Of a stretch of DNA of 27,826 nt, positions 3,919 through 24,125 are shown piece after piece. This DNA is from a virus: IMG/VR virus record IMGVR_UViG_3300032820_000085, positions 1 through 27,826 of that record; one strand, 5' to 3'. Positions within the stretch are counted from its first letter, which is position 1. Every line of letters starts with the position of its first letter. The notes under the pieces are model-generated. The model was not told where the DNA came from, did not search any database, and worked only from the letters and a program-made list of their open reading frames with translations. The position numbers and the translations under genes are program-made.

Positions 3919-4140
3919 ATGATCAAGACTTACCTTTTAGTAGGAATGCTTTGTATTCCGTCGATAGAGTGTTTCAGCTTTTTGGAACCAAAACCAACTT
4001 ACTATACAAATTTACAAAAATGTTTAGTGGATGGAAAAAAACTTGGAGACGATATGTACGGCAGAATGTTAGCGCTCGGTTTAAATGTGCGAATGAAAGT
4101 TTGGTGTCAAGAAATAGAACAACATGGAGAATATAGTTAA
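3919..4140 (+). CDS. Small secreted or membrane-anchored protein
   Basis: 73 aa. Residues 1-19 form a hydrophobic stretch after Met-Ile-Lys ('MIKTYLLVGMLCIPSIECFS') that looks like a signal peptide. The mature part has two cysteines about 29 residues apart (in 'QKCLVDG' and 'VWCQEIE') that could form a disulfide in the periplasm. Its stop codon overlaps the start of the tail tubular A gene (TAATG), which favours this frame over a competing longer frame that starts at 3897. No clear Shine-Dalgarno is seen. Function unknown. Confidence 0.55.
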   Translation: MIKTYLLVGMLCIPSIECFSFLEPKPTYYTNLQKCLVDGKKLGDDMYGRMLALGLNVRMKVWCQEIEQHGEYS

Positions 4141-4718
4141 TGGCAAGTAATGTAGATATATGTAATTCAGCTTTAAATCTTTTAGGAGCAAGTACGATCT
4201 CTGCGCTCACGGAAGATACGAAGAACGCCAGAATTTGCAATCAGCGTTTCGCTCCAGTTCGTAATAGAGTGTTCAGATCACATCCGTGGAATTGTCTAAT
4301 TAAGCGAGTACAGCTCGCAGAAAATTCGACAGCTCCTGTAGTGGAATATTCAAAAGCATTTAATCTTCCGAGTGATCACCTTCGTACTTTAAAGCTACAC
4401 AACGGATCTACTGATAGTATAACTGGATCGATCACTTATAAACTTGAAGGATCTACGTTAGTCACAAATGAATCTACGGCTTATATCGTTTATGTTGCTT
4501 TAGATACGGATCCGAATAATTACGATGCTTATTTAATGGAAGCTTTATCTTATCAGCTAGCTGCAGATATGGCTTATGGAATTACAAATAATGCAACGCT
4601 GGCGAAAAATTTATTAACGGATGCCGACGAAAAATTAAGAGAAGCAAGATTTATAGACGCAACTGAAAATTCAGTTGATACGATTGAAGCTTCTGAATTT
4701 ACCGATGCGAGGCTGTAA
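4140..4718 (+). CDS. Tail tubular protein A (T7 gp11-like adaptor)
   Basis: 192 aa, equal to the usual size of T7 gp11-type adaptors. The N-terminus 'ASNVDICNSALNLLGAS', the 'ICNQRFAPVRNRVFRSHPWN' segment (about residues 33-52) and the 'FNLPSDHLRTLKL' segment are hallmark features of the family. The protein forms a 12-mer ring under the portal that connects it to the nozzle. Start and stop overlap the neighbours by one base on each side (TAATG), as expected for a co-translated tail operon. Confidence 0.93.
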   Translation: MASNVDICNSALNLLGASTISALTEDTKNARICNQRFAPVRNRVFRSHPWNCLIKRVQLAENSTAPVVEYSKAFNLPSDHLRTLKLHNGSTDSITGSITYKLEGSTLVTNESTAYIVYVALDTDPNNYDAYLMEALSYQLAADMAYGITNNATLAKNLLTDADEKLREARFIDATENSVDTIEASEFTDARL

Positions 4719-20878: not shown

Positions 20879-21288
20879 TGCGGATTTCTGAAAAGACAAA
20901 TGTAAATATGCCTCTCAAAACCATAGTGAGTTTAATCATTATGGCTAGTGCTTTTACATTTTCTTATTTTGAAATTACCTCAAAGATCCAACAGTTAGAA
21001 ACAGCTAAAAGTTTAATGACTGTAGATGTAGAGGAAAACAGTAAGTTTAGAATAGAAACTGCAAAAACTCTTTTAGAAGAAAAGATCAAACAGGTTCCAA
21101 TAGACAAAGAACAATTTTTTATTCTGGAGGAAATTCTAAAATCCATAGAACGAATTGAAAAGGAACAAGAAAACTCAAGATTTAATTATGTGAATATTGA
21201 GAATTTAACAAAAAATATGGATGGCGTTCTTGAAGATATTGAATTGCTAAAAGATAAAATAAGAGAAAACGGAAAATACAATCAATGA
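20878..21288 (+). CDS. Inner-membrane anchored coiled-coil protein (spanin candidate)
   Basis: 136 aa. One membrane segment at about residues 13-30 ('LKTIVSLIIMASAFTFSYFE') follows a short cytoplasmic head. From residue 35 to the end it is a charged coiled coil, with many Glu, Lys, Ile and Leu residues. This topology (N-in, long periplasmic coiled coil) is what Rz-like i-spanins have; partner o-spanins could be one of the two lipoproteins upstream. It could also be a scaffold for another membrane complex. Confidence 0.5.
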   Translation: MRISEKTNVNMPLKTIVSLIIMASAFTFSYFEITSKIQQLETAKSLMTVDVEENSKFRIETAKTLLEEKIKQVPIDKEQFFILEEILKSIERIEKEQENSRFNYVNIENLTKNMDGVLEDIELLKDKIRENGKYNQ

Positions 21289-21545
21289 AAACAATGGAAG
21301 TAATAGCTCTTTGTATGTGGCTTGCAAATGCAGAAGGAAAATTAGAATTAATCGAGCATACTTATAAAGAGAGCCTCCGAGAATGTTTACGCAGTTCGAG
21401 GATAGCTCAACGAGAATTGGATCCGATGCGTGCAAAATTCGCCTGCGGAAAAGTGATGGCTGTTGTTGAACTAGATAAATCTGGAACAAAAGATAGATGG
21501 CGAATAGTTAAAATTATTGATCATGGTTATAAGGACGAATATTAA
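21285..21545 (+). CDS. Small secreted two-cysteine protein
   Basis: 86 aa, starting in an ATGA overlap with the preceding gene. Residues 1-16 look like a signal peptide ('MKTMEVIALCMWLANAEG'). Mature part: 'YKESLRECLRSSRIAQRELD', then 'FACGKVMAVVELDKSG'. The two cysteines (in 'RECLR' and 'FACGK') could pair. The pattern resembles small Cys-containing accessory proteins of marine phages. Function unknown. Confidence 0.6.
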   Translation: MKTMEVIALCMWLANAEGKLELIEHTYKESLRECLRSSRIAQRELDPMRAKFACGKVMAVVELDKSGTKDRWRIVKIIDHGYKDEY

Positions 21546-21739
21546 TGGAAAATAAAATCATAGCTGCTGCTCTTGCATGTATCATAGCTCTTTCTGGTTG
21601 GTCGCTTACGACTACGGTTGGACTTAAAACAGATGTCGCTTTATTAAATCAAAAAGTCGAAACCTTAGAAAAGAAAGTAAACTCTGCTTTAAAGAAAAAC
21701 GTAAAAAAGAAAAAAAAGAAAAAGCAGAAAACTCAATAA
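21545..21739 (+). CDS. Membrane protein with coiled coil and poly-Lys tail
   Basis: 64 aa, starting in a TAATG overlap. N-terminal membrane segment ('IIAAALACIIALSGWSL', about 5-21), then a short heptad region ('LLNQKVETLEKKVNSALKK') and a tail with nine lysines in a run-like cluster. It may be an accessory lysis or membrane protein. The next gene starts 64 bases downstream. Confidence 0.55.
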   Translation: MENKIIAAALACIIALSGWSLTTTVGLKTDVALLNQKVETLEKKVNSALKKNVKKKKKKKQKTQ

Positions 21740-21754
21740 AATTATAAAAAAAGC

Positions 21755-21803
21755 TGTGAGGTATAGGTCGGACTAACCTCGAAATCAGAATCTCTGTTGA
21801 GAT
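21755..21803 (+). repeat. Two-copy structured element, copy 1
   Basis: TGTGAGGTATAGGTCG (21755-21770) is followed 13 bases later by ATCAGAATCT (21784-21793), and ATCTC-TGTT-GAGAT (21790-21803) forms a hairpin ending just before the ATG at 21804. GAGGT near the start can also pair with ACCTC at 21776-21780. A related element is at 24488-24535. It is non-coding and the same two sequence blocks occur in the same order. Function unknown; a regulatory RNA leader is one guess. Confidence 0.5.
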
Positions 21804-22190
21804 ATGGAAGCCTTTTTTTACAAATTTATGAGAAAAAAGAAGATCTTCGCTAGAAAATGCGATTGGTGCAAATCTGAAATTATCCTAAACGGACCAGATA
21901 CTGACAGTTATGTCGTTACGGCTGAGTGGAAATATTTTTGTATTAATCAAAGACCAGGTAAACCTGCTGAAAAAGATTGTATGGCGGACTACCTAAATAA
22001 CATAAAGGAAAAACTATATGAACGTACCATTAAAAAAGAACTGGAAAAAAAAGAAAAAGAACAAAAAGAAAAAGAAGAAAAAGAAAAGAAAATAAAATCA
22101 ATGCCTAGAGTTTTAGCCAAGCTTGATGCTTTTCAAAAAGAATTGAAAGATCGAGAATGGAAAAGACGCCTATCAAAACATCCTTCCTAA
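21804..22190 (+). CDS. Zinc-ribbon-like protein with charged helical tail
   Basis: 128 aa from ATG 21804; a second ATG at 21828 is possible. Cys19 and Cys22 ('CDWC'), Cys46 and Cys59 form a Cys-x2-Cys ... Cys ... Cys metal-site candidate in a compact N-terminal domain. Residues about 72-105 are an uninterrupted Lys/Glu helix, and the C-terminus is basic. It is the last rightward gene before the attP region, 400 bases ahead of the integrase. It may bind nucleic acid. No family recognised. Confidence 0.55.
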   Translation: MEAFFYKFMRKKKIFARKCDWCKSEIILNGPDTDSYVVTAEWKYFCINQRPGKPAEKDCMADYLNNIKEKLYERTIKKELEKKEKEQKEKEEKEKKIKSMPRVLAKLDAFQKELKDREWKRRLSKHPS

Positions 22191-22330
22191 AAAATTCCTA
22201 TCAACAAAAATTGAATCCTAGACTCGCTTAATTCACTATTGATAATCCTATGTTTTTTGATATTAATATTAATGCGGAGGTTGTTAAAACTTCAAATGTG
22301 TTTGGACAGTTTTTGAACCGAATACTTAAA

Positions 22331-22369
22331 GCGCTCTTAGCTCAGTTGGATAGAGCATCGGTTTTCTAA
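22331..22369 (+). other. attP core: 5' half of tRNA-Arg(UCU)
   Basis: Bases 22331-22369 fold as the 5' half of a tRNA: acceptor strand GCGCTCT, TA, D-stem GCTC/GAGC around AGTTGGATA, then TCGGT and a TTTCTAA anticodon loop with anticodon TCT at 22365-22367. This matches the E. coli argU-type tRNA-Arg(UCU) 5' half. Immediately after the anticodon loop the sequence departs (expected ACCGA is replaced by TTAAG), and no T-arm or 3' acceptor follows. It is therefore a fragment, not a functional tRNA, and marks the likely integration site within a host tRNA-Arg gene. Confidence 0.75.
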
Positions 22370-22426: not shown

Positions 22427-22590
22427 GGAATAATTGAACCAGGAATTGTATAAATTCTTCAAGTATGTGGTAATTTTATTTAGAGTTGAAATTTGGCTTG
22501 AACCATTTTTGAACCATATCTCATCTAAGTTGTTAAAAGAAATTATCAGATCATCTTGTAAAATAAGCTTGGTTCTTTATTAAACTAAAT

Positions 22591-23928
22591 ATGGACCTAC
22601 GAGTATATCCAAAAAACGGAAAGTTTGTTATTCAAAATATGGATAACAATAGAAGGCAAATTGGCAGATGTTATCAAAGTAAGACTGCTGCCAATGCTGC
22701 TTGTAAAAAACTTTATGCCGATGTTGCTACAAAAAAAGTTGTAGTTGGAGATCGGTATAAGTTTAAAGACGAGTTCAAAAGATATGCAGATGAAAGACTT
22801 AAATCTGCGGAAGATGAAACCGTCGCTCTCTCTAAAGCTAGCATAAGATCTTATGAAAGCTTTTATCGCAACTACATAGTAGATTGTTTTCCAGATTTTG
22901 TGGAAATCAAAAATGCTCAAGGAGTTGTTATAAAAACAGTATCTTCTGTTTATTTAGATGAGATCACAGGTAAAGCTCTTCATAAGTTTGTAACTAATTG
23001 TTATGAACAAAAGGAAGCTACCTGGAAAACTGTTCAAAAAATAATCTCTCATATCAAAACATTTTTGAGAGATTGTGATGGTGATGATATGGTTATTAAT
23101 CAATCTGTTTTTAATTGGAAGATTGGAAAAAAGACAGAACTACAACCAGATCAGCATGAGTTGAAATATCCAAAAAAATCAACTCCAATCATGCCAGACG
23201 AAGCTGAAATGTTAATCAATAGTTTATATGCAAAAAGAAATATAGATTTTTATTCTGCTTATAAATTAGCTGCTATAGCAACTTTCACTTTTACTGGTTT
23301 AAGATTTTCTGAACTCAAAGGTATATTGAAAAAATATATTGATTTGGAAAATAAAACTATCTTCATTGCTGGTGTTTATGATCATAACGAAGGTCGTTAT
23401 AGAGAAAGAACTAAGCGTGAGGAAAGTAGAAGGCATATTGAAATTCAAGATGGGTTTATGCCTTATCTTACTGAATGGATGGAAAGAATTAAGGATATGA
23501 AAAATGATTATCTATTTCCATCATTAAGAGATACTGGTCCAATGTCTCAGCATAAGTTTAGATCTTTGATCTGGAAAACTTTTGAAGAGCATGGTTTGGC
23601 AACTCTAAAATGGAGAACTAAAAAATATAATAGTAAGTTCTCAAGAGGTACATCAACAACTTTTACAGTTATTGATAGTCCATTCAAAGGTTGTCCGACT
23701 AAAGCTTTTAGACATGCTTTTGGAACTCATCTAGTTAATGCCGTTAAATCTGATCCGAACCTTGATCAAAATTATGTAAGAAAAGCATTAGGTCATGCGG
23801 ATTACAGAACTTCTGAATTAGTTTATGGAACTCATGTTATGAGAGTTAGTGAGGAAGTTAGAATAGCAAGAAGAGCTGCTGTAGCAAAAGCTATGAGAAT
23901 AAAACCAGCTCACAAATTATTAAAATAA
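22591..23928 (+). CDS. int: Tyrosine-family integrase
   Basis: 445 aa, the length of a full phage integrase. The N-terminal ~50 residues resemble an arm-binding domain, about 60-190 is the core-binding helical domain ('SIRSYESFYRNYIVDCFPDF'), and the rest is catalytic. Catalytic set: Arg238 in 'FTGLRFSELKG', Arg374 in 'TKAFRHAFGTHLV', His402 in 'KALGHADYRTSEL', and nucleophile Tyr412 in 'LVYGTHV'. Box II reads Lys371-x-x-Arg374, so the usual His is a Lys. The gene starts at ATG 22591 without an obvious Shine-Dalgarno, 22 bases after the TTGG of a putative promoter. It should integrate the phage at the tRNA-Arg site next to it. Confidence 0.95.
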   Translation: MDLRVYPKNGKFVIQNMDNNRRQIGRCYQSKTAANAACKKLYADVATKKVVVGDRYKFKDEFKRYADERLKSAEDETVALSKASIRSYESFYRNYIVDCFPDFVEIKNAQGVVIKTVSSVYLDEITGKALHKFVTNCYEQKEATWKTVQKIISHIKTFLRDCDGDDMVINQSVFNWKIGKKTELQPDQHELKYPKKSTPIMPDEAEMLINSLYAKRNIDFYSAYKLAAIATFTFTGLRFSELKGILKKYIDLENKTIFIAGVYDHNEGRYRERTKREESRRHIEIQDGFMPYLTEWMERIKDMKNDYLFPSLRDTGPMSQHKFRSLIWKTFEEHGLATLKWRTKKYNSKFSRGTSTTFTVIDSPFKGCPTKAFRHAFGTHLVNAVKSDPNLDQNYVRKALGHADYRTSELVYGTHVMRVSEEVRIARRAAVAKAMRIKPAHKLLK

Positions 23929-23939
23929 ATTTAAAACAA

Positions 23940-24125
23940 TTAAGCGGATCGGTTAATAGCTGGTCCGCTTTTTTTTATTAACTTTTTATCTGCTCTAAGC
24001 AAGGCTTCGATCATTTTATTTTTATCCTTATCAAATGCCTCGTAAGCAGTTCCGCCATCTGCCATAATTGTACTGCAAGCAAATTGGACAGCTTCAAGTT
24101 CTAGTTTTGTAAGTTTAGTGTTCAT
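23940..24125 (-). CDS. Small leftward protein (61 aa)
   Basis: Begins 'MNTKLTKLELEAVQFACSTI', followed by 'MADGGTAYEAF' and a charged helix. The LTKLELEAVQFA...I-M-A-D-G-G pattern is like short phage proteins of unknown function that have an initial helix and a Gly-Gly turn. Its last codons lie in the integrase terminator, and its start is preceded by an A/T-rich stretch with a TTGGCA and a CATATA about 19 bases apart, a weak promoter candidate. It is convergent with the integrase. Confidence 0.6.
   Translation of the reverse strand: MNTKLTKLELEAVQFACSTIMADGGTAYEAFDKDKNKMIEALLRADKKLIKKSGPAINRSA
23942..23978 (+). terminator. Rho-independent terminator after the integrase
   Basis: AAGCGGATCGG (23942-23952) pairs with CTGGTCCGCTT (23960-23970), with two G-T wobbles, giving an 11-bp stem and 7-base loop, followed by a run of T. 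It ends the rightward integrase transcript. It also lies under the last codons of the leftward 61-aa gene, so it may act on both strands. Confidence 0.85.

Follow-up and report, generated by a model that had tools for sequence, protein, structure and literature searches.

The 27,826-base virus contig analysed here (IMG/VR record IMGVR_UViG_3300032820_000085; the whole stretch is called the window) most probably carries, at positions 22331-22369, the core of the phage attachment site (attP) of a temperate podovirus of SAR11 bacteria. In this reading, to which we assign a probability of about 0.87, the phage supplies the 5′ half of tRNA-Arg(UCU), and the complete tRNA gene would be rebuilt behind phage DNA. 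The window contains the exact half and an integrase gene, and the same geometry was observed at both junctions of homologous prophages. In textbook integration into tRNA genes, the host gene stays under its own promoter; an abundant group of ocean phages appears to do the reverse to single-copy tRNA genes of SAR11, so that the lysogen would rely on viral DNA to express an essential tRNA.

The half-tRNA and the adjacent integrase

The 39 bases at 22331-22369 (GCGCTCTTAGCTCAGTTGGATAGAGCATCGGTTTTCTAA) are identical (39/39) to the 5′ part of tRNA-Arg(UCU) in eight SAR11 genomes, seven of which contain the complete 77-nt gene as detected by ARAGORN, the contig of the eighth ending within the gene. 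The match begins exactly at base 1 of the tRNA and closes with the last base of the anticodon loop, TTTCTAA (22363-22369); at the next position the phage has T and all the hosts have A, and agreement with the hosts before 22331 is inconsistent. An exact match of 39 bases that begins and ends on tRNA landmarks is far more than chance would produce. ARAGORN found no tRNA gene in the window, and the 3′ half of tRNA-Arg(UCU) is absent from it. The first-pass annotation had read this segment as the 5′ half of tRNA-Arg(UCU), lacking the 3′ half and ending after the anticodon loop, and the host genomes bear out both points, since identity with them stops directly after that loop. When window bases 22331-22369 were joined to the host 3′ half, the virtual junction scored as tRNA-Arg(UCU) with all stems perfectly paired; for the reciprocal virtual junction no tRNA was scored. 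The window thus holds a tRNA gene (tDNA) end fragment of the 5′ kind, from which the target gene can be rebuilt.

By its genes, the window is an HTVC028P/HTVC010P-like pelagiphage, i.e. a phage of SAR11 bacteria. Tail tubular protein B shows 73% identity to its counterpart in Pelagibacter phage HTVC028P and 58% to the one in HTVC010P, and the gene order (portal, scaffold, capsid, tail, internal proteins, M15 peptidase and integrase, int) is that of HTVC028P; the homologous structural genes in order, the peptidase M15 and the position of int are those of the Ubiqueviridae type. A 2013 report (PMC3861242) had already tied HTVC010P-related phages to SAR11 via att/tRNA matches. The tyrosine integrase gene beside the core, recognised by its Phage_integrase match and its invariant catalytic columns, starts 221 bases downstream of the core. 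R238, K275, K371 (at the HxxR position), R374, H402 and Y412 are invariant in 10 family members, with lysine at position 371, a place taken in most tyrosine integrases by the first histidine of HxxR. The features of the region are as follows.

22331..22369, + strand: putative attP core, exact 5′ half of SAR11 tRNA-Arg(UCU), base 1 through the anticodon loop (host-genome match, virtual junction)
22363..22369, + strand: anticodon loop TTTCTAA, presumed 7-base-pair (bp) crossover overlap (analogy with known anticodon-loop integrases, PMC8371274)
22591..23928, + strand: tyrosine integrase, 445 amino acids (Pfam Phage_integrase, E 9e-15)
22191..22330, + strand: non-coding; would immediately precede the restored tRNA once the phage has integrated, and a promoter would be needed here unless there is read-through
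22302..22319, + strand: left-arm candidate arm-type integrase sites TTGGACAgtttTTGAACC, in tandem with 11-bp spacing (repeats)
22434..22441, + strand: right-arm candidate arm-type site TTGAACCA (repeat)
22498..22516, + strand: two right-arm candidate arm-type sites TTGAACCA (22498-22505 and 22509-22516) with 11-bp spacing (repeats)
23942..23970, + strand: terminator-like hairpin and T run after the integrase (sequence)

The TTGAACC-type repeats that fill the stretch just upstream of 22331 are likely integrase arm sites. At the place of the left-arm repeats, relatives of the window have a TTACACC pair (L030) or a TTGCACC pair (L087). In the whole window TTGAACC occurs 14 times versus 3.7 expected, and many of these copies are distant from attP.

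With the window protein alone as query, no close relatives of int were found in viral contigs; they were detected only with an alignment query. In three such relatives, L030 (52% identical) and L087/L088 (51-54%), int is preceded at the same position by the Arg 5′ half, which has a single change in one of them and is exact in the others.

Homologous prophages and the distribution of tRNA halves

SAR11-family genomes were searched in two partly overlapping draws of 397 each, and a profile of three integrases yielded seven strong homologues (397 genomes). Both junctions were seen in three prophages, two at tRNA-Asn (G296 and G078) and one at tRNA-Asp (G195). In G296 and G078, the left prophage end (attL) reads host tRNA-Cys, the tRNA-Asn 5′ half, about 230-260 bases and int; genomes with an empty site have tRNA-Cys and tRNA-Asn as direct neighbours. 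The other ends of these prophages, on separate contigs, read phage genes, then an intact tRNA-Asn, then host DNA, and at this right end (attR) of G296 the phage genes are homologues of the HTVC028P-like gp30 to gp21. Compared with the empty site of G342, the left and right flanks of G296 are 99% and 95% identical (shuffled baseline 58%), whereas its inner flanks resemble G342 no more than shuffled sequence does (about 58%) and are 84% and 71% identical to HTVC028P. G195 shows the same junction geometry at tRNA-Asp. In all three prophages, the host's original 5′ half is left before int and the intact tRNA lies at the far end behind phage DNA. The geometry put forward in the first-pass annotation, with the phage supplying the 5′ half and the tRNA restored behind phage DNA, is therefore real in the window's integrase family, and at tRNA-Arg(UCU) itself it is a prediction by analogy. 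A 5′ half of tRNA-Ser before a further family integrase (G563, L191) adds one more target tRNA.

Among IMG/VR viral contigs, counted without de-duplication, the 39-base Arg half occurs in 15 others than the window, none of them with a complete tRNA, and the Arg 3′ half occurs in none. The Asn 5′ half was found in 59 contigs (52 with the half only and 7 with the whole tRNA) and the Asn 3′ half in 7 (6 whole tRNAs and 1 with the 3′ half only), so that half-only contigs, 5′ versus 3′, number 52 versus 1 for Asn and 15 versus 0 for Arg. A window-type integrase lies within about 300 bases downstream in 32 of the 52 half-only Asn 5′ contigs. The same 39 Arg bases are also present in the isolates HTVC120P and HTVC134P, and the HTVC120P-type integrase has no significant sequence similarity to that of the window (E 0.16). 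In the stretch 3930-4225 of HTVC120P (L026), where int is on the other side of the core, integration would place the host tRNA-Arg promoter before the phage RNA polymerase gene, with a hairpin (GGTTCCC...GAACC) between.

Integrases group in the tree according to their target (Arg 5′, Asn 5′, Asp 5′ and Met). Integration in the Met group is of the canonical type: in G133, int adjoins an intact tRNA-Met, and a displaced 3′ fragment is found at the opposite end of the prophage. The intact tRNA-Met before int in L036, L037 and L097 was considered as a contradiction and set aside, G133 being a canonical 3′-half prophage in a sister clade. Contig C1 of G133 (L119, L121, L055) is a tRNA-Met hot spot, in which the canonical 3′-half HTVC028P-like prophage is accompanied by a second 3′ fragment 1.6 kb beyond it and by a 1.5-kb insert bordered by a 5′ fragment (1-63) with GGTCCACTG repeats. 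In L098 (about 2350-2460), a tRNA-Asn 3′ half lies behind a decayed 5′ half, and the integrase is sister to that of a 5′-half user (support 100/99), indicating that the half can flip inside one integrase lineage.

Asp-type phages and prophages hold a complete, divergent tRNA-Asp besides the tRNA-Asp 5′ half (L089 3901-3977, L053 12604-12680 and L127 8480-8556; also L090-L093 and L095). This spare tRNA is possibly a backup, which would be close to tRNA-dependent lysogeny. That the Asp 5′ halves of L089-L095 (GATCGCC) are decayed and the phages tRNA-dependent was also considered, and was refuted by the finding of the same sequence in a native host gene (G009, L128).

Proposed promoter swap and alternative explanations

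For the window phage we infer integration at tRNA-Arg, the position of the cut and a promoter swap, as follows. The integrase (22591-23928) would recombine 22331-22369 with the host tRNA-Arg(UCU) at the anticodon loop, presumably across a 7-bp overlap at TTTCTAA as in the known class of anticodon-loop integrases (PMC8371274). The host promoter and the host 5′ half would end up before phage DNA, reading toward int, and a complete tRNA-Arg would be rebuilt at the other prophage end from the phage 5′ half and the host 3′ half, behind phage DNA. Before integration, a phage promoter would read through the half-tRNA into int; after integration, it would read the tRNA, and the host tRNA promoter would read int. 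The interval from the core to int yielded neither a promoter-like site on the + strand nor a terminator-like one, which suits such a swap without proving it.

The tRNA-Arg(UCU) gene is present in one copy in each of the four SAR11 genomes checked, so that a lysogen would have to transcribe tRNA-Arg from phage DNA; AGA is the main arginine codon of the window phage (124/197). At Asn-type sites, we found a sigma-70-like pair (TTGACA/TTTACA, 16-17 bases, TAAAAM, mostly TAAAAC/TAAAAA), which ends 17-20 bases before tRNA base 1 in 9 of the 10 non-redundant sites. The mean promoter score of these sites was 9.2 of 12, compared with 7.23 (standard deviation 0.30) for shuffles, and 0 of 200 shuffles reached 9.2. 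A different set of Asn-half phages had no excess of promoter-like sites. In the window, the sole conserved motif just upstream of 22331, TTRnAC-17-CTTAAW, was tried as a promoter and rejected, since it reaches up to the tRNA and arm-type repeats account for it; the remaining promoter-like sites upstream of 22331 are at chance level. The first-pass claim that a phage-borne promoter is needed thus gains support from the tRNA-Asn relatives, with their conserved site at a fixed distance, but not from the window, where none stands out.

Several observations weigh against the attP reading. The Asn promoter sites share ancestry, so the shuffle test overstates their independence, and upstream of 22331 (22191-22330) the search for a promoter gave nothing above background. 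Prophages at tRNA-Arg(UCU), in which the first-pass annotation had seen the means of checking its geometry, were not found in either of the two draws of 397 SAR11 genomes, by pattern search as well as with an Arg-type int profile. The single lone Arg half met in a SAR11 genome (L083/L118) has no phage genes beside it. Moreover, the window's integrase family includes 3′-half users (L098 for Asn, G133 for Met), so the choice of half is not fixed by the enzyme. As to the lone tRNA-Arg(UCU) 5′ half in L083 (contig C52 of the SAR11-family genome G106), it lies between gpsA-like and YeeE-like genes.

The lack of a lysogen at tRNA-Arg would also fit a half-tRNA that is a relic or a capture without any role in integration, the integrase being dead or using another site, and T7-like cyanophages do integrate without stable lysogeny (PMC8776855). 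We regard this explanation as improbable, because the Arg half has stayed at one position in three members of the int family despite identities of only 51-54%, relatives form real prophages with crossovers at the anticodon loop, and the catalytic residues of the integrase are kept. Tied to the spare complete tRNA-Asp of the Asp-type members of the same integrase family is another possibility, tRNA-dependent lysogeny, in which the host tRNA is disrupted by integration and replaced by a complete one from the phage. This is very improbable here: the 27.8-kb window, itself a genome fragment, contains no complete tRNA, and its core is 39 nt rather than about 10 and rebuilds a perfectly paired tRNA.

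A variant of the attP reading concerns only the source of transcription. The restored tRNA-Arg could be made by read-through from 21285-22190 on the same strand with no dedicated promoter, as suggested by the lack of an outstanding promoter in 22191-22330 and by the open reading frames upstream of the core, which run toward it. We consider this rather unlikely, since the genes in 21285-22190 come after the lysis/tail region, so that a lysogen would be expected not to express them, and since relatives of the Asn type show a clear promoter at a constant spacing. For SAR11 phages in general, we tentatively suggest, at somewhat less than even odds, that the 5′ half is the default and is coupled to a promoter swap, that the half flips within a lineage as in L098, and that some lineages add a spare tRNA as a backup.

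Comparison with known systems

If a lysogen depends on phage DNA in this way, loss of the prophage or decay of the promoter would be costly to it, and the phage would gain control over host translation. SAR11 phages would also provide a concrete setting for the interconversion of the 5′ and 3′ forms and of tRNA-dependent lysogeny, whose relation was called unclear by the authors of PMC10865867. The mycobacteriophages with tRNA-dependent lysogeny described there resemble the proposed system in that an essential tRNA is kept in the lysogen with phage help; they differ in having a short core without tRNA rebuilding and a complete phage tRNA, neither of which is seen in the window.

The closest system is HTVC028P (proposed genus Vigintioctopevirus, Ubiqueviridae), which shares the podovirus gene order and a 5′ half-tRNA core ending at the anticodon loop, placed in the same way before an int that is about 30% identical to that of the window. 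Its target is tRNA-Asn(GUU) instead of tRNA-Arg(UCU), both being cut at the same point, and a clear promoter-like site precedes its half-tRNA. The HTVC120P-type T7-like pelagiphages (Autographiviridae) share the same 39-base Arg core, likewise the 5′ half only, but their own int, of 319 amino acids, is on the other side of the core and they carry a phage RNA polymerase. P-SSP7 also has a 5′ half core, that of tRNA-Leu as read from its sequence, and its integration was shown by polymerase chain reaction (PMC8776855).

The archaeal pTN3-like integrases use 5′ halves, with the restored tRNA expressed from the integrase promoter, and are seldom met in bacteria (PMC8371274). Expression of the restored tRNA from the element's side would be common to both systems; pTN3-like elements are an archaeal plasmid/virus family, likened to the window by geometry. 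In Islander, 159 of 3919 islands have 5′ fragments (PMC4383910), with a lone 5′ tDNA fragment upstream, an intact tDNA at the far end and a tyrosine integrase between them; this class is rare there, whereas here, at two tRNA genes of a single host group, it is the norm. Attachment through 5′ halves is therefore already known, though uncommon in bacteria, and the Arg site falls within this known kind; what is new is the dominance of 5′ halves in SAR11 phages and the switching of halves within one integrase family.
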